Shown here: positions 6,299-28,035 of the stretch, one piece after another
How the letters are laid out: every line of letters begins with the position of its first letter
Position numbering within the stretch: position 1 is the first letter of the stretch
Source of the DNA: Pseudonocardia alaniniphila
Lineage (GTDB): Bacteria > Actinomycetota > Actinomycetes > Mycobacteriales > Pseudonocardiaceae
Length of the DNA stretch: 64,000 nucleotides
NCBI RefSeq assembly: GCF_022524485.1
Contig: NZ_JAKXMK010000002.1
Location: 124,001-188,000 of the forward strand
Direction: 5' to 3'
Notes under the pieces: generated by a model
Told to the model about the DNA's origin: nothing
Seen by the model: only the letters and a program-made list of their open reading frames with translations
Database searches by the model: none
Program-made: the position numbers and the translations under genes

Positions 6299-7846
6299 TC
6301 AGGAGACGTGCCGCTTCTGGTGGTTCCAGTGCCGGTCCCGCAGCTGACGCTTGAGGATCTTGCCGGCGCCCGACATCGGCATGGAGTCGACGAACTCGAA
6401 ACTGCGCGGAACCTTGTAGCCGGCGATGCGTTCCCGCACGTGCCTGCGCAGCTCCTCCTCGGTGGCCCGGACGCCGCCTGCCGGCAGCACCACGGCGTGC
6501 ACGCGTTCCCCCCACCGCGGATCCGGGACGCCGATGACCGCGCACATCCCGACGCCGGAGTGGGTGGCCAGCGTGTTCTCCACCTCGGTCGAGTACACGT
6601 TCTCGCCGCCGGAGATGATCATGTCCTTGACCCGGTCGACCACGAAGAGGTAGCCGTCGTCGTCGAGGTATCCGGCATCGCCGGTGTGCATCCAGCCGTT
6701 CGCCAGCGCCTCGGCGGTCTCCTTCGGCCGGTTCCAGTAGCCGAGCATCCGGCCGCCACCACGGGCGACGATCTGGCCTGCGGTGCCGGGCGGCACGTCG
6801 TTGTCGTCCTCGTCGACGATCCGCATCTCGACGTGCGGGGCTGCACGCCCTCCCGAGCGCCGCAGGAGCGGATCGTGATGCTCCTCGGGCCCGAGCAGTG
6901 TGATCACCGGGGACATCTCGGTCATCGCGTACGCCTGCGTGAGACGGGTGCCGGGCAGCCGGGCGATGGTCCGTTCGATCAGCGCCTCCGACATCGGGGA
7001 GCCCCCGTACAGCAGGCGCTGCAGGCTCGACATGTCGGCGTGGGCGGCCTCGGGTGAGTCGACCAGCATCTGGATCATCGTGGGCACGAGGATCGTGTCG
7101 GTGATGCGGTGCTCTTCGATCATCCGCGCCACCGCCCCGGCATCGAAGCGGGGTGTGAACACATGGGTGCCGCCGGCGAGGTTCACGGCGACCCATCCGG
7201 AGATGTCCGCGGCGTGGAACATCGGAGCGGTGTGCAGGTAAATGGCCCCGGGACGGGTCCAGTGGCCGGAGGCCATCGATCCGAGCGCCGAGACGATCAG
7301 GTTGTCATGGCTGAGCATCACGCCCTTGGGCACGCCGGTGGTGCCGCCCGTGTAGAAGATGGCGGCCAGGGCGTCACCACCGCGATGGACCTCCGCCACG
7401 GGCTCGCTGCCGGCGATGAGCTCCTCCACGGAGGATGCGTCGTCCGGGCCCGAATCGTCGCCGTCGAACAGGACGTGCTTCAGAACCGGAGCCTGCGTGC
7501 GGAGATCGAAAATCGACGAGGCGAAGTTCTCGTCGACGAGCAACACCGCGGTGCCGGAATCCTCCAGCGAGAACGCGATCTCCGCAACGGACCACCGGGT
7601 GTTCACGGGAACGAATGCCGCGCCGATCCAGCACGCCGCGAGCATGAACTCGTGGTAGATGTCCGAATTGGCCGAGAGAATCGCCACGCGGTCGCCGGGC
7701 TGCACGCCGAGCCCGCGCAGGGCACCGGCCAACCGGGCGATCCGTTCGGCGGACTCGGCCCAGGTCCGCGTCCGTCCCATGAAGACGGTGGCGGGTGCGT
7801 CGGGGCCCTGTTGCACTGCGCGCAGCAGCCCTTGGGTGATTTCCAT
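6299..7846 (-). CDS. AMP-dependent acyl-CoA synthetase/ligase
   Basis: A 515-residue adenylate-forming enzyme that activates a carboxylic acid with ATP and transfers it to CoA. The P-loop-like A3 motif is FYTGGTTGVPKGVMLSHDN (about residue 170). The A5 motif is YAMTEMSP, A7 is GWMHTGDAGYLDDDG, A8 is RVKDMIISGGENVYSTEVE, and the catalytic lysine of A10 lies in SGAGKILKRQLR near the C terminus. All core motifs are intact. The ATG at 7846 is the start. It may act with the aromatic hydroxylase upstream on the same strand, for example by activating an aromatic or fatty acid, but the substrate cannot be read from sequence. Confidence 0.93.
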   Translation of the reverse strand: MEITQGLLRAVQQGPDAPATVFMGRTRTWAESAERIARLAGALRGLGVQPGDRVAILSANSDIYHEFMLAACWIGAAFVPVNTRWSVAEIAFSLEDSGTAVLLVDENFASSIFDLRTQAPVLKHVLFDGDDSGPDDASSVEELIAGSEPVAEVHRGGDALAAIFYTGGTTGVPKGVMLSHDNLIVSALGSMASGHWTRPGAIYLHTAPMFHAADISGWVAVNLAGGTHVFTPRFDAGAVARMIEEHRITDTILVPTMIQMLVDSPEAAHADMSSLQRLLYGGSPMSEALIERTIARLPGTRLTQAYAMTEMSPVITLLGPEEHHDPLLRRSGGRAAPHVEMRIVDEDDNDVPPGTAGQIVARGGGRMLGYWNRPKETAEALANGWMHTGDAGYLDDDGYLFVVDRVKDMIISGGENVYSTEVENTLATHSGVGMCAVIGVPDPRWGERVHAVVLPAGGVRATEEELRRHVRERIAGYKVPRSFEFVDSMPMSGAGKILKRQLRDRHWNHQKRHVS

Positions 7847-24773: not shown

Positions 24774-24804
24774 TTCGTTCTATGGTCGACGAACATCGAA
24801 CGAA
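24774..24804. promoter_or_regulatory. Inverted repeat across the SDR start codon
   Basis: TTCGTTC (24774-24780) and GAACGAA (24798-24804) are perfect arms 17 bp apart, and the SDR ATG (24782) lies between them. An internal CGAAC (24790-24794) adds a further half-site. ArsR-type binding here would block a leaderless SDR transcript. Confidence 0.4.
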
Positions 24805-25549
24805 TTCCTTCGCCGGGCTGGCCGTGATCGTGACGGGGGCGGGTTCGGGTATCGGGCGGGCGGCAGCGCGCGCGCTCGGCGCGGCGGGGGCCGACGTCCT
24901 CGTCGTGGGCCGACGCCCCGACGCGCTGGACGCCACGGCGGACGGGCTCCCGTCGGTCGTCCCGTTCGCGGCCGACGTGCGGGCCCCGGACGCGGCCGGA
25001 GCGATCGTGGCAGCGGCCGCGGAGCGGTGGGGCCGGATCGACGTCCTGGTCAACAACGCCGGAGTGTTCGCGGCGATGCCGCTGGCCGACGTCACAGCGG
25101 AGGGCATCGCCGACCTCGTCGACACCAACATCACCGCACCGAGCCTGCTGGCCGCGGCTGCGCTGCCGTGGTTGCGCGAGAGCCGCGGCGCGATCGTCAA
25201 CGTGTCGAGCACGTTCGGCCACCTGCCCGCCCCGGGCTTCGCCCACTACGGCGCGTCCAAGGCGGCGCTCGAACACCTCACGCGAAGCTGGGCGCTGGAA
25301 CTGGCGCCGCACCGCGTGCGGGTGAACGCCGTCGCGCCCGGACCGACCGAGACCGGCGCCCTCACAGCGGCCGGGCTGTCCGAGGCGGTCATCGCCCAGG
25401 TCAAGGACGAGGAGGCCGCCCGCATCCCGCTCGGCAGGCGCGGTGAGGCCCACGAGGTGGCCATGTGGATCGTGCAGTTCGCCGACCCGTCGGCTGCGTG
25501 GGTCACGGGCCAGGTCCTGTCTGTCGACGGTGGGCTCGGGCTGACGTGA
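24782..25549 (+). CDS. Short-chain dehydrogenase/reductase
   Basis: About 255 residues, a classical SDR. The cofactor motif TGAGSGIG is at residues 18-25, NNAG follows, the catalytic serine is in NVSSTFG, and the YGASK motif gives Tyr and Lys. The C terminus VTGQVLSVDGGLGLT is typical. It oxidises or reduces a hydroxyl/keto group with NAD(P). Divergent from an ArsR repressor, which probably controls it; such pairs are common and often respond to electrophiles. The substrate is unknown. Confidence 0.93.
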   Translation: MVDEHRTNSFAGLAVIVTGAGSGIGRAAARALGAAGADVLVVGRRPDALDATADGLPSVVPFAADVRAPDAAGAIVAAAAERWGRIDVLVNNAGVFAAMPLADVTAEGIADLVDTNITAPSLLAAAALPWLRESRGAIVNVSSTFGHLPAPGFAHYGASKAALEHLTRSWALELAPHRVRVNAVAPGPTETGALTAAGLSEAVIAQVKDEEAARIPLGRRGEAHEVAMWIVQFADPSAAWVTGQVLSVDGGLGLT

Positions 25550-25578
25550 CCGGGCCGGCACCGCTGCTGACATGTGGG

Positions 25579-26780
25579 TCGAGCGGGGTGCCTGGGAGGA
25601 CGCGCTCGGCTGGCCGGCGCGGGGTGGACGAGCGGCGCGTTGGTTCGGTGGGGCGGGGCGGGGCGCTCGTTCGGCTTGCCGCTTGGTCGGGCGGTGTCAT
25701 GATCACCGGTTTGGTTCCGGCAACTGTTGATGACACGGTTGCCGCTCCCCGATCGTTGATCATGGGGCCGGGTGGGCTGCTGGGCCGACCGGCCGGCTCG
25801 GGAGGTGGATGACGGGTCGGCGGGCCGCTCGTTCGGCTGGCCGCTTGGTCCGGTGGCGTCATGATCACTGGTTCGGGGTCGGTAACCGGTGCTGGCGCGG
25901 TTGCTCGTCCCGATCGTTGATCATGAGGCCGGGATGGGGTGCCTGGGAGGACGGCCGCCCGGCTGGCCGGCGCGGGGTGGACGAGTGGCGCGTTGGTGCG
26001 GTGGGTCGGGGGCAGGCCCCTCGTTCGGCTTGCCGCTTGGTCGGGCGGTGTCATGATCATCGGTTTGGTCCTGGCAACTGCTGATGACGCGGTTGCCGCT
26101 CCCCGATCGTTGATCATGGCGCCGGGGTGGGTGCCTGAGAGGCCGGCCGCGCGGCTGGCCGGCGCGGGGTGGACGAGTGGCGCGTTGGTGCGGTGGGTCG
26201 GGGGCGGTCCGCTCGTTCGTCTGGCCGCTCGGTCCGGTGGCGTCATGATCACTGGTTCGGGGTCGGTAACCGGTGCTGGCGCGGTTGCTCGTCCCCGATC
26301 ATTGATCATGAGGCCGAGGTGGGGTGCCTGAGAGGCTGGCTGCCCGGCTGGCCGGCGCGGGGGTGGACGAGCGGCACGGTCGTGCGGTGGGTCGGGGGCG
26401 GGCGGCCGCTTGTCGTCTTCCCGCTCGATCCGGGTCTCATGATCACCGGCTCGGGCGCGGTAACCGCTGTCGACACGGCTGCCCGTTTCCGATCGGTGAT
26501 CATGAAGCCGGGTACGAGTGCTCGGCCGCTCGTTCGGCTGGCCGCTCGGTCCGGTGGCGTCATGATCACTGGTTCGGGGTCGGTAACCGGTGCTGGCGCG
26601 GTTGCTCGTCCCCAATCGTTGATCATGAGGCCGGGATGGGGTGCCTGGGAGGACGGCCGCCCGGCTCGGGAGGTGGGCGAGCGGCCTTTCGTGCGACAGG
26701 TGGGGGCGGCGGGCCGGTCGTTCGTCTACCCGGTCGGTCCGGGCGGTCTCATGATCACCGGTCCGGGCTCGGCTACCGGG
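25579..26780. repeat. Tandem array of hairpin-forming 69-bp elements in ~190-bp units
   Basis: Six full cores lie at 25697-25765, 25859-25926, 26051-26119, 26243-26311, 26437-26505 and 26560-26628, and a truncated one at 26749-26780. Each starts TCATGATCA and ends TGATCATGA (or TGATCATGG). Core starts are 162, 192, 192, 194, 123 and 189 bp apart, and the spacers are also homologous (GGGGTGCCTGGGAGGAC, GGCGCGGGGTGGACGAG, CTCGTTCGGCTTGCCGC). Cores fall into subtypes: A (1, 3), B (2, 4, 6) and C (5). Inside, GGCAAC pairs with GTTGCC in type A and GGTAACC with GGTTGC in type B, with CGGGG/CCCCG around it in B. So each core can form an interrupted hairpin. The array sits between the ends of two convergent genes. 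Confidence 0.9.
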
Positions 26781-28035
26781 TTCTCGTGGCGTCCAGGTGC
26801 ATGGACAGCCAGCTGAAGATCCGTTGGGCGGTCCGGCGGGGTGCGAGGGGCTGGCAGTGGAAGTTCGCCCCGTCGGCCACGCTGAACGGCGCGAGCTCGT
26901 GCGGTGCCTTCAGCAGGCCCGCGAGCTGCTTGGACTGGCCTGGCCAGAACTGCTCGTCCTCCGGGTCGGTGATCAGCAGGGGAGTGCGGATCCGGGCGGC
27001 GACGTCGCGAAGCTGGTAGGTGCGCACCGCGGTGAACAGGTCGAAGGAGTCGTCGATGCCGTAAGGGCGGGCGCGGAAGGCGAAGGTGCGCTCCAGCGCG
27101 GGATCCTGGCCGGCGGCCTCGGCCATGTACGCGTTGAAGGTGTCCTTCTGGCCGTTGTCGAGCAGCGCGATCATCTCCGGTGGCATGTAGCTCATCCAGG
27201 AGGCCGACACGTCGACGACGCCCGGATCGGCCACGGCCGCCACGAAGCGATGCTCGAACGCCAGCGCCCGAGGGAGCCAGTACCCGGCCTGGCTGATCCC
27301 GTACGCCGTGAGTGCCTGCGCGTCCACGTCAGCACGGTCGACGAGCACGTCCACCACGGGCGTCAGCACGGCCTCCCAGTCGGGCCGGAACGTCACACCG
27401 CGTTCGAACAGCAGGGACTGCTGGCCCGGGCCGTCGTACACGAAGGCGTTCCACCCACGCGCGAGTGCTTCGGCCGCGCCGCTCGACCAGAGGCCGGTGA
27501 GGGCGCCGTCGCTGCCGTTGGTCATGACGAAGGTCGGACGCGGCGCACCGGAGGAGTCGGGCCGCAGCAGGTAACCCGGCAGCGTCGCTCCCTCGTAGGG
27601 GATCTCCACGCGGACGAATCGGCCGCCCGACGAGTCGATCATCGCGTTCCAGCTGCGGCGCGAGCTCCGGAACGTCGGAAGCATGAGGTCCGCGGCCTCC
27701 CCAGCGGGCAGTCCGTCCACCGCGGCGAGGGCCCGGGAGTAGGCGGCCGACGCGGACAGGTGCGCCCACATGGCCCCGGGTGGATCGGCGGCGCTCGCGA
27801 CACCGAGCGCGGCGAACTGGTCGCCCCTGTGCGTCCACGCGGAGAACCAGCCCCGCCAGTCGCCGTCCGCGATGCCGTTGACGGTGGCGAGCACGCTGCC
27901 CGGGTCGCCGACGCCGTAGGCGGTGGCACCGAGGGCGAGGCGCGTCTCGAAGTCGAAGTCGGTGTCGGCGAAGAACCCGCCGGTCAGGGCGCGGGAGCCG
28001 GTGGCGGCGGGACGGACGGACTGGGAGGTCGTCAT
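26773..28035 (-). CDS. Alpha/beta hydrolase (pseudooxynicotine-hydrolase/acyl-peptidase type)
   Basis: A 420-residue serine hydrolase with an N-terminal helical region and a C-terminal alpha/beta fold. The nucleophile elbow is GISQAG (about 243-248), the acid is in TDPEDEQFWPGQ (about 357-368), and the histidine is in NFHCQP (about 391). The oxyanion region is TFVMTNGSDGALTGLW. The layout resembles dipeptidyl-peptidase-like carbon-carbon or ester hydrolases such as 2,6-dihydroxypseudooxynicotine hydrolase. Its TAG stop lies inside the truncated last repeat of the neighbouring array, so the normal C terminus may have been trimmed. Confidence 0.87.
   Translation of the reverse strand: MTTSQSVRPAATGSRALTGGFFADTDFDFETRLALGATAYGVGDPGSVLATVNGIADGDWRGWFSAWTHRGDQFAALGVASAADPPGAMWAHLSASAAYSRALAAVDGLPAGEAADLMLPTFRSSRRSWNAMIDSSGGRFVRVEIPYEGATLPGYLLRPDSSGAPRPTFVMTNGSDGALTGLWSSGAAEALARGWNAFVYDGPGQQSLLFERGVTFRPDWEAVLTPVVDVLVDRADVDAQALTAYGISQAGYWLPRALAFEHRFVAAVADPGVVDVSASWMSYMPPEMIALLDNGQKDTFNAYMAEAAGQDPALERTFAFRARPYGIDDSFDLFTAVRTYQLRDVAARIRTPLLITDPEDEQFWPGQSKQLAGLLKAPHELAPFSVADGANFHCQPLAPRRTAQRIFSWLSMHLDATRTR

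Follow-up and report, generated by a model that had tools for sequence, protein, structure and literature searches.

The window, that is the whole 64-kb stretch of DNA analysed, carries an array of palindromes in an intergenic gap of 1,223 bp (25550..26772). The gap lies between two convergent genes, as an earlier note on this DNA had claimed. The left-hand gene (24782..25549, plus strand) encodes a short-chain dehydrogenase (Pfam adh_short_C2) and the right-hand gene (26773..28035, minus strand) encodes a protein of 420 residues; both are given for context only. Six complete palindrome cores are present on the plus strand: core 1 (type A, 69 bp, 25697..25765), core 2 (type B, 68 bp, 25859..25926), core 3 (type A, 69 bp, 26051..26119), core 4 (type B, 69 bp, 26243..26311), core 5 (type C, 69 bp, 26437..26505) and core 6 (type B, 69 bp, 26560..26628). 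They are followed by a lone left half-site without a right arm (26749..26781, plus strand), detected in the half-site scan, which runs with its inner end into the 3′ end of the right-hand gene. The count of six complete cores and one partial core given in the earlier note is therefore correct, and its subtype order A-B-A-B-C-B can be read in the core sequences. Its core length of 69 bp holds for five cores but not for core 2, and its array start at 25579 has to be replaced by the first base of core 1. The start-to-start distances are 162, 192, 192, 194, 123 and 189 bp, which agrees with the claimed intervals of 123-194 bp.

The exact motif TCATGATCA, considered on both strands, is confined in the window to the array cores, so the statement that the end motif is absent elsewhere stands for the exact form. 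With one mismatch permitted, 29 matches were found in the window, against a mean of 6.6 and a maximum of 16 in 100 shuffles. The spacers are homologous to each other within the array, and we therefore conclude, as had been proposed for a unit of ~190 bp, that tandem duplication enlarged the array by units measuring at most about 190 bp. A 370-residue open reading frame on the minus strand (25503-26615) spans the whole array; the gap is G+C-rich and codon usage gave no gene call. At 11 loci besides the present one that carry homologues of the right-hand gene, neither the array nor the left-hand gene was found and another neighbour was present instead; a single two-mismatch site in one of them (L326) was treated as chance. 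These array-free loci fit an insertion or rearrangement point, without proving one.

A dispersed palindrome family

The earlier note had envisaged that no other copies of the core might exist. The search of the source genome revealed instead a large family. The pattern TCATGATCA-N35-65-TGATCATG gave 31 forward and 25 reverse matches, most places matching on both strands, and a 16-base half-site with one mismatch permitted gave 250 + 203 = 453 matches; the reversed control gave 0 in both cases. On one 386-kb contig, four arrays of 6, 5, 7 and 6 sites occupy gaps of 1.15-1.22 kb. Core orientation is uniform within each array examined for orientation. Some distant arrays have spacer sequence in common, with 71-85% identity among the best 40 by length of 119 matches, and core-plus-spacer units have therefore been copied between loci. 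The closest core in another array is at most 96% identical (median 81%), and nothing pointing to an empty site, a target duplication or recent dispersal has come to light in this genome. Half-sites without a partner account for 27 of the 279 in the source-genome DNA examined, most of them within arrays or at array ends. Lone half-sites at the ends of other arrays resemble the one at 26749-26781 in the window.

The core also recurs in related genomes, where a search had been suggested. The sequence-only model R1 matched in 37 of 62 genomes of the genus, with at least 17 matches in nine of them, the source genome included. Match counts obtained with R1 and R2 often list one palindrome twice, once per strand, and are capped at the numbers of candidates scored (82, 20 and 150 per genome), so that the counts rank genomes and are not numbers of sites. 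The half-site pattern of the source genome gave 26 matches in genome G001, none exact, compared to 2 in the control; it fails to separate G001 from the control because the G001 consensus differs. At least 116 stretches were pulled by a DNA-pattern scan of genome contigs, and one of the 30 tested with R1 gave a weak match. In G001 and G004 the sites are spread over the chromosome, which speaks against clustering at the origin or terminus.

The positions of the sites relative to genes were compared with the background of intergenic gaps. Of the site groups in the relatives, 18 fall between convergent, 17 between tandem and 3 between divergent genes; another 6 lie inside predicted genes and 3 at the ends of loci. 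The background in the same DNA, counted over gaps no shorter than 75 bp, is 27 convergent, 94 tandem and 53 divergent; the loci used are the best matches and their genes were called by a simple script. At the source-genome loci the groups are 8 convergent, 5 tandem and 3 divergent, with 5 inside genes, and on the contig of the window the array gaps are 2 convergent, 1 tandem and 2 divergent, eight in-gene matches being treated as chance. Avoidance of promoters by the palindromes is clear in the relatives only. In nine cases, counted by eye, the upstream gene ends at the first TGA within the palindrome, which serves as its stop codon. Four palindromes at L247:5706-6044 lie within a predicted long open reading frame, at spacings of 93, 90 and 90 bp that are all multiples of three; this reading frame may have been wrongly called as a gene. 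At L241 (about 6970-7130), palindromes are adjoined by short tandem repeats of the GACTCGCGCGCACGCAG type. A link of the arrays to one class of neighbour genes was rejected, as no dominant Pfam family emerged among the 93 of 107 listed neighbours that were scanned, the other 14 having been left out before the neighbour set A3 was formed.

Duplex site or folded strand

Conservation along the half-site has its maxima at CATGATCA, CG, TT, GG(ga)C and A(r)CCG, and is at background level outside position -3. The arms are conserved to about position 27 and enclose a variable centre of about 9 bp. Half-site positions 11-18 (TTSGGGAC) may resemble the half-site of the mycobacterial DosR box, in a different arrangement, and the palindromes may also resemble integron attC sites.

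The earlier note had argued that the folded form matters, as RNA or single-stranded DNA, on account of a pairing-preserving base change between types A and B. The change from G-C to G-U is indeed seen, but it is one-sided and not compensatory. Folded as single-stranded RNA, each window core reaches a z-score of -5.1 to -6.7, as expected of any palindrome. For the test of covariation, which had been suggested, palindromes lying well within predicted genes, those of any length but 63 bp and copies at least 85% alike were left out. The arms show no tendency to match in the source genome (69 de-duplicated copies, Stouffer -1.9) or in three relatives (25 copies, Stouffer -0.5). When species were pooled, symmetric positions changed together (38 copies, Stouffer +6.7, relatedness uncorrected). 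For the helix formed by the two arms, 84.5% of the cells in alignment A1 are paired, compared to 84.6% with the arms redealt among copies. In the source genome, hairpins with swapped arms are more stable than the real ones, by 1.4-1.7 kcal/mol (n = 75; p 0.012 on one strand and 0.006 on the other), and in G006, G033 and G048 (n = 11, 7 and 7) the difference is not significant. The RNAalifold covariation term is -0.13 kcal/mol. A search of Rfam returned two matches only, both far under the cut-offs, and no family near threshold. The cores thus fold strongly while their arms vary independently within a genome, and the claim for a folded form is not supported. Independence of the arms within species, together with joint change between species, is the trace expected of a protein with two equal half-sites. 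The palindrome is accordingly best regarded as a putative two-fold-symmetric site for a protein on duplex DNA, to which the sequence comparison points.

The spacing of the copies was also analysed. In the source genome, the distances between neighbouring copies, where below 140 bp, cluster near 72, 93, 103, 113 and 123 bp. With one value taken for each combination of array and distance class (n = 35), the phasing to the helix was equalled in 1 of 5000 jittered sets; over all 87 spacing values, it was equalled in 41 of 5000. In the relatives the spacings are mainly 81-83 and 90-93 bp (16 spacings).

The likely partner nuclease and the palindromes beside its gene

Cross-species comparison of the genes adjacent to sites exposed a recurring nuclease family, first noticed beside typA. 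All seven family matches in the DNA fetched to that point lay 0-126 bp from a site; these seven include four query genes, the loci had been fetched for holding sites, and only two matches on a G006 contig were free of this selection. As site-selected DNA biased this adjacency count, loci were chosen by protein alone. The protein-only search found nuclease matches in all 62 genomes of the genus (E <= 1e-10). With up to three end-motif mismatches, 28 of 30 loci picked in this way have a palindrome within 400 bp, and 20 have one on both sides; with up to two mismatches the figures, read by eye from the rows, are 25 and 15. Control genes of similar length (n = 183 and 205) have a palindrome on any side in 16% and 21% of cases and on both sides in 0.5% with up to three mismatches; with up to two, the values are 5% and 4%, with 0 on both sides. 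For 12 further genes of the nuclease loci, a site was present on a single side in 8 cases and on both sides in 0, as would be expected of neighbours. The two loci without a palindrome are L345 and L358, the latter cut by a contig end; the near-duplicate genomes G014/G015 and G046/G056 were retained among the 30.

The closest nuclease gene of the source genome lies on another contig than the window (G000:C26:158818-159690). An eight-site array begins at its stop codon, and no site was found just upstream. More distant relatives of the nuclease occur in the same genome at G000:C25:79267-80085, C14:240415-241197 and C33:123845-124675, some with a stop inside the match; the C25 relative (L389) has one weak palindrome nearby. 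About 20 of the 58 nuclease loci of the genus and the bacterial family, counted by eye, have typA within 1.5 kb (L333-L350 in part, L380, L381, L387), and the source-genome gene is near typA too. This linkage indicates that the nuclease lineage concerned was inherited in place and that its loci are not independent; in that lineage the gene may move rarely, or no longer. In L407, from another bacterial family, a TypA match (59% identity) also stands near the nuclease; the neighbourhood of the two genes is an old one. Among the at least 116 pattern-pulled stretches listed, the sole nuclease match, from Pseudonocardia sp. 73-21, has palindromes on both sides. Across the 62 genomes, the R1 match count correlates with how similar the best nuclease is to the query (Spearman 0.59, p 4e-7; 0.55 without the source and query genomes), phylogeny being uncorrected in both values. 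R1 gave no match in three genomes that do have a close nuclease, G026, G046 and G056.

The palindromes share the ends TGATC..CG, and the interiors outside these ends differ by nuclease lineage. Inside the end motif, half-sites around one gene are 67% identical, compared to 39% between genes. Half-site distance tracks protein distance (Mantel rho 0.40, p 0.0002, 37 loci, the near-duplicates L348 and L362 left out), and the difference in palindrome length does so weakly (rho 0.13, p 0.05). In g42, another genus of the bacterial family, the ends differ, being of the CAAGATC, AGATGTAGC and GAGTGCGGC types, and a matched palindrome pair was seen by eye around 6 of 8 genes looked at. A motif-free comparison of left and right flanks exceeded the 95% null of mismatched pairs at 21 of 27 loci of the bacterial family and 11 of 26 loci of the phylum; in the genus 10 of 29 loci pass against a null that itself includes related palindromes. 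By eye, matched pairs are present at 9 of 29 phylum loci. In the bacterial family, one query sequence (E <= 1e-20) detected the nuclease in 15 of 150 genomes and 3 of 46 genera. A profile search found the nuclease family to be widespread in the phylum (102 of 396 genomes and 79 of 237 genera sampled), beside which the palindromes were examined in just 29 loci beyond the bacterial family. No nuclease match was obtained in a search of phages, and one record matched in a search of plasmids. On the Tsukamurella tyrosinosolvens plasmid NZ_LR134454.1 (L421:2860-3960), a pair of 42-bp palindromes, about 90% alike and mutually inverted, flanks a gene annotated as a DUF559 domain-containing protein.

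The nuclease protein has about 293 residues, with an AbiEi-like half (about residues 1-175) and a half of the Vsr/I-Bth0305I type (about residues 190-290). Four full-length proteins were scanned, and their C-terminal hundred residues match MTES_1575 and DUF559 (Pfam PF18741 and PF04480) above the cut-offs. MTES_1575 is described as a Vsr-family REase in the available text of PMC3710099, and DUF559 as frequent in Vsr-like endonucleases in that of PMC12907096. The N-terminal half is matched by the AbiEi models of PADLOC. Among solved structures, profile matches were obtained to 3hrl, 3r3p (I-Bth0305I, E 7e-5), AbiEi 6y8q and AbiGI 9hlo. An AlphaFold2 model (pLDDT 93, pTM 0.77) matches AbiEi 6y8q (E 2.5e-7) and I-Bth0305I (E 1.4e-3, TM 0.82 on the target) by fold, and its match to Vsr (1cw0) is weak by E-value. 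Glu232, Asp234, Gly235 and His239 are invariant in 43 aligned proteins. Alignment A4 left out 15 of the 58 nuclease loci: seven were duplicates or divergent, and eight were set aside as short, cut or stop-flagged, although three of these eight are in fact full length. E232, D234 and H239 are putative catalytic positions, assumed from the Vsr-like fold. According to the available text of PMC7319586, AbiEi binds two 23-bp inverted repeats 3 bp apart, the repeat pairs of Rv2827c are 13 bp apart, and paired inverted repeats of the AbiEi type are located upstream of the gene to which they belong. By analogy, a palindrome of 62-63 bp, whose arms measure about 27 bp and whose centre measures about 9 bp, would have the geometry of an AbiEi operator.

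Interpretation and likeness to known systems

We consider that each 62-69-bp palindrome is probably a duplex operator or target of the chromosomal AbiEi-Vsr nuclease, the solo copies being non-autonomous; the assignment is a putative one, drawn from flanks, conservation and protein likeness. In the proposed mechanism, two AbiEi-Vsr monomers would bind the two arms of one palindrome, one per arm, as inferred from AbiEi and its paired 23-bp repeats. Neighbouring sites on one helical face could be bound together, with cooperation across helical turns. The nuclease half may act at or near palindromes, making nicks or breaks. Repair of such breaks between direct copies would expand and shrink arrays, and copying into a cut site would generate palindrome-gene-palindrome units and solo palindromes. 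The window array would then consist of non-autonomous copies of the palindrome-gene-palindrome unit. Two of the four guesses in the earlier note, a protein-binding array and a small non-autonomous element family, fit together in this explanation; the other two, a structured-RNA array and a terminator cluster, do not. With intact target sites next to the gene, the chromosome would be open to attack by its own nuclease, and this was counted against the nuclease-target reading. A bolder proposal, which we put forward tentatively and hold to be somewhat doubtful, is a phylum-wide class of transposase-less mobile elements: a gene for an AbiEi-guided Vsr-type nuclease, bracketed by its own palindromic targets, would spread itself and solo palindromes by break repair. 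The duplex operator could conceivably then be the minimal mobile unit, a counterpart of REP/RAYT made of unrelated parts. Both proposals were judged slightly less likely because the source-genome gene has palindromes on a single side and because some of the loci are related by descent.

The palindromes might instead be operators only, those beside the gene being AbiEi-type autoregulatory operators and the solo copies binding sites kept for another role, such as chromosome organisation, insulation or decoys, while the nuclease half moves none of them. This would agree with the upstream position of AbiEi-type paired repeats (available text of PMC7319586), with the strict length and helical phasing, which suit a binding array, and with the nuclease lineage that stays beside typA. 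However, palindromes lie downstream of the gene as well in most loci and between convergent genes in the relatives, and the copying of array spacers between distant loci looks like spread rather than regulation; we therefore regard a purely regulatory role as unlikely. Spread could also be due to an ordinary DDE transposon of which the palindrome is a miniature inverted-repeat element, the nuclease gene being a frequent passenger or neighbour. The pair of long inverted arms in the palindromic unit, its high copy number and the spacers common to several loci would suit such an element. This origin is very unlikely, as palindrome sequence tracks nuclease lineage, the few unpartnered half-sites keep mostly to arrays or their ends, and no larger element with the same ends is apparent in the source-genome DNA examined. 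A parent insertion sequence was sought in the half-site scan of the source-genome DNA examined and none was apparent.

A family of structured RNAs or bidirectional terminators working through a folded transcript would account for the strong folding of each core and for the many relatives' sites in convergent or tandem gaps, some with the palindrome TGA as gene stop codon; the G006 hairpins are also nominally more stable than arm-swapped ones (not significant, n = 11). It is extremely unlikely given the lack of covariation within the genome, the lower stability of the real source-genome hairpins and the lack of an Rfam family near threshold; moreover, 2 of the 5 array gaps on the contig of the window are divergent. 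REP elements of a Y1 (RAYT) transposase have the same layout of extragenic palindromes, arrays and bracketed gene (available text of PMC2817692 and PMC3733652), and two Y1_Tnp matches occur in the source genome. Nevertheless, Y1_Tnp (PF01797) is present in 5 of the 62 genus genomes and in 2 of the 9 with at least 17 R1 matches. Its distribution does not follow the repeats, which largely refutes this explanation; in addition, a GTAG or CGTC tag is not apparent and the pairing evidence favours duplex DNA. Such an origin is almost certainly wrong, and the earlier statement that the array is no standard REP is upheld, the REP-element transposase being missing as partner.

Compared with known systems, the AbiEi-Vsr nuclease and its putative duplex targets combine features found separately elsewhere. 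The N-terminal half of the protein matches AbiEi antitoxins of the type IV toxin-antitoxin system AbiE by profile and fold, and an AbiEi-like protein is encoded beside the repeats. The palindromes resemble the operators of AbiEi and Rv2827c in having two inverted half-sites around a centre, which is of 3-13 bp there (available text of PMC7319586) and about 9 bp here. Unlike AbiEi, the protein runs on into a nuclease domain, and unlike AbiEi operators, the sites are also found downstream of the gene and at many distant places. The C-terminal half resembles I-Bth0305I (3r3p) and Vsr (1cw0) by profile or fold, with invariant acidic and His positions. A homing endonuclease gene such as that of I-Bth0305I interrupts its one target site, whereas the present gene sits between apparently whole palindromes and its product has an AbiEi-like DNA-binding half. 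The nuclease half belongs with DUF559/MTES_1575 (PF04480, PF18741) by both Pfam cut-offs, but the available text of PMC3710099 and PMC12907096 describes no palindromic repeats beside such genes. A literature search, outside preprints and most subscription papers, found no link of DUF559/MTES_1575 genes to palindromic repeats, and the association of nuclease and palindrome is provisionally regarded as novel. Should it be true, this family of unclear function would gain a DNA target that can be read from the gene flanks. Many natural protein-site pairs would become available for testing DNA choice by AbiEi-like domains, and repeat amplification by a lone nuclease in a bacterial genome would become directly testable.

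As short, non-coding units with inverted arms and high copy number, the palindromes also resemble MITEs; they differ in that no parent element with the same ends is apparent in the source-genome DNA examined, a small part of the genome. The closest likeness in layout is to REP/RAYT systems (REPtrons, TIRtrons), which comprise high-copy extragenic palindromes, arrays, a dedicated bracketed gene and solo copies (available text of PMC2817692 and PMC3733652). The partner here is an AbiEi-Vsr nuclease and not a Y1 transposase, the unit is of 62-69 bp compared to the 20-40 bp given for REPs in the available text of PMC3733652, and recognition appears to be of the duplex and not of a hairpin, with no conserved pairing within the genome. 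We have filed the array as a variant of gene-associated extragenic palindromes, because it has the layout of REP/RAYT but lacks its defining enzyme. For high-copy extragenic palindromes there is a single well-argued maker, the RAYT transposase; the same layout is found here with an unrelated protein.
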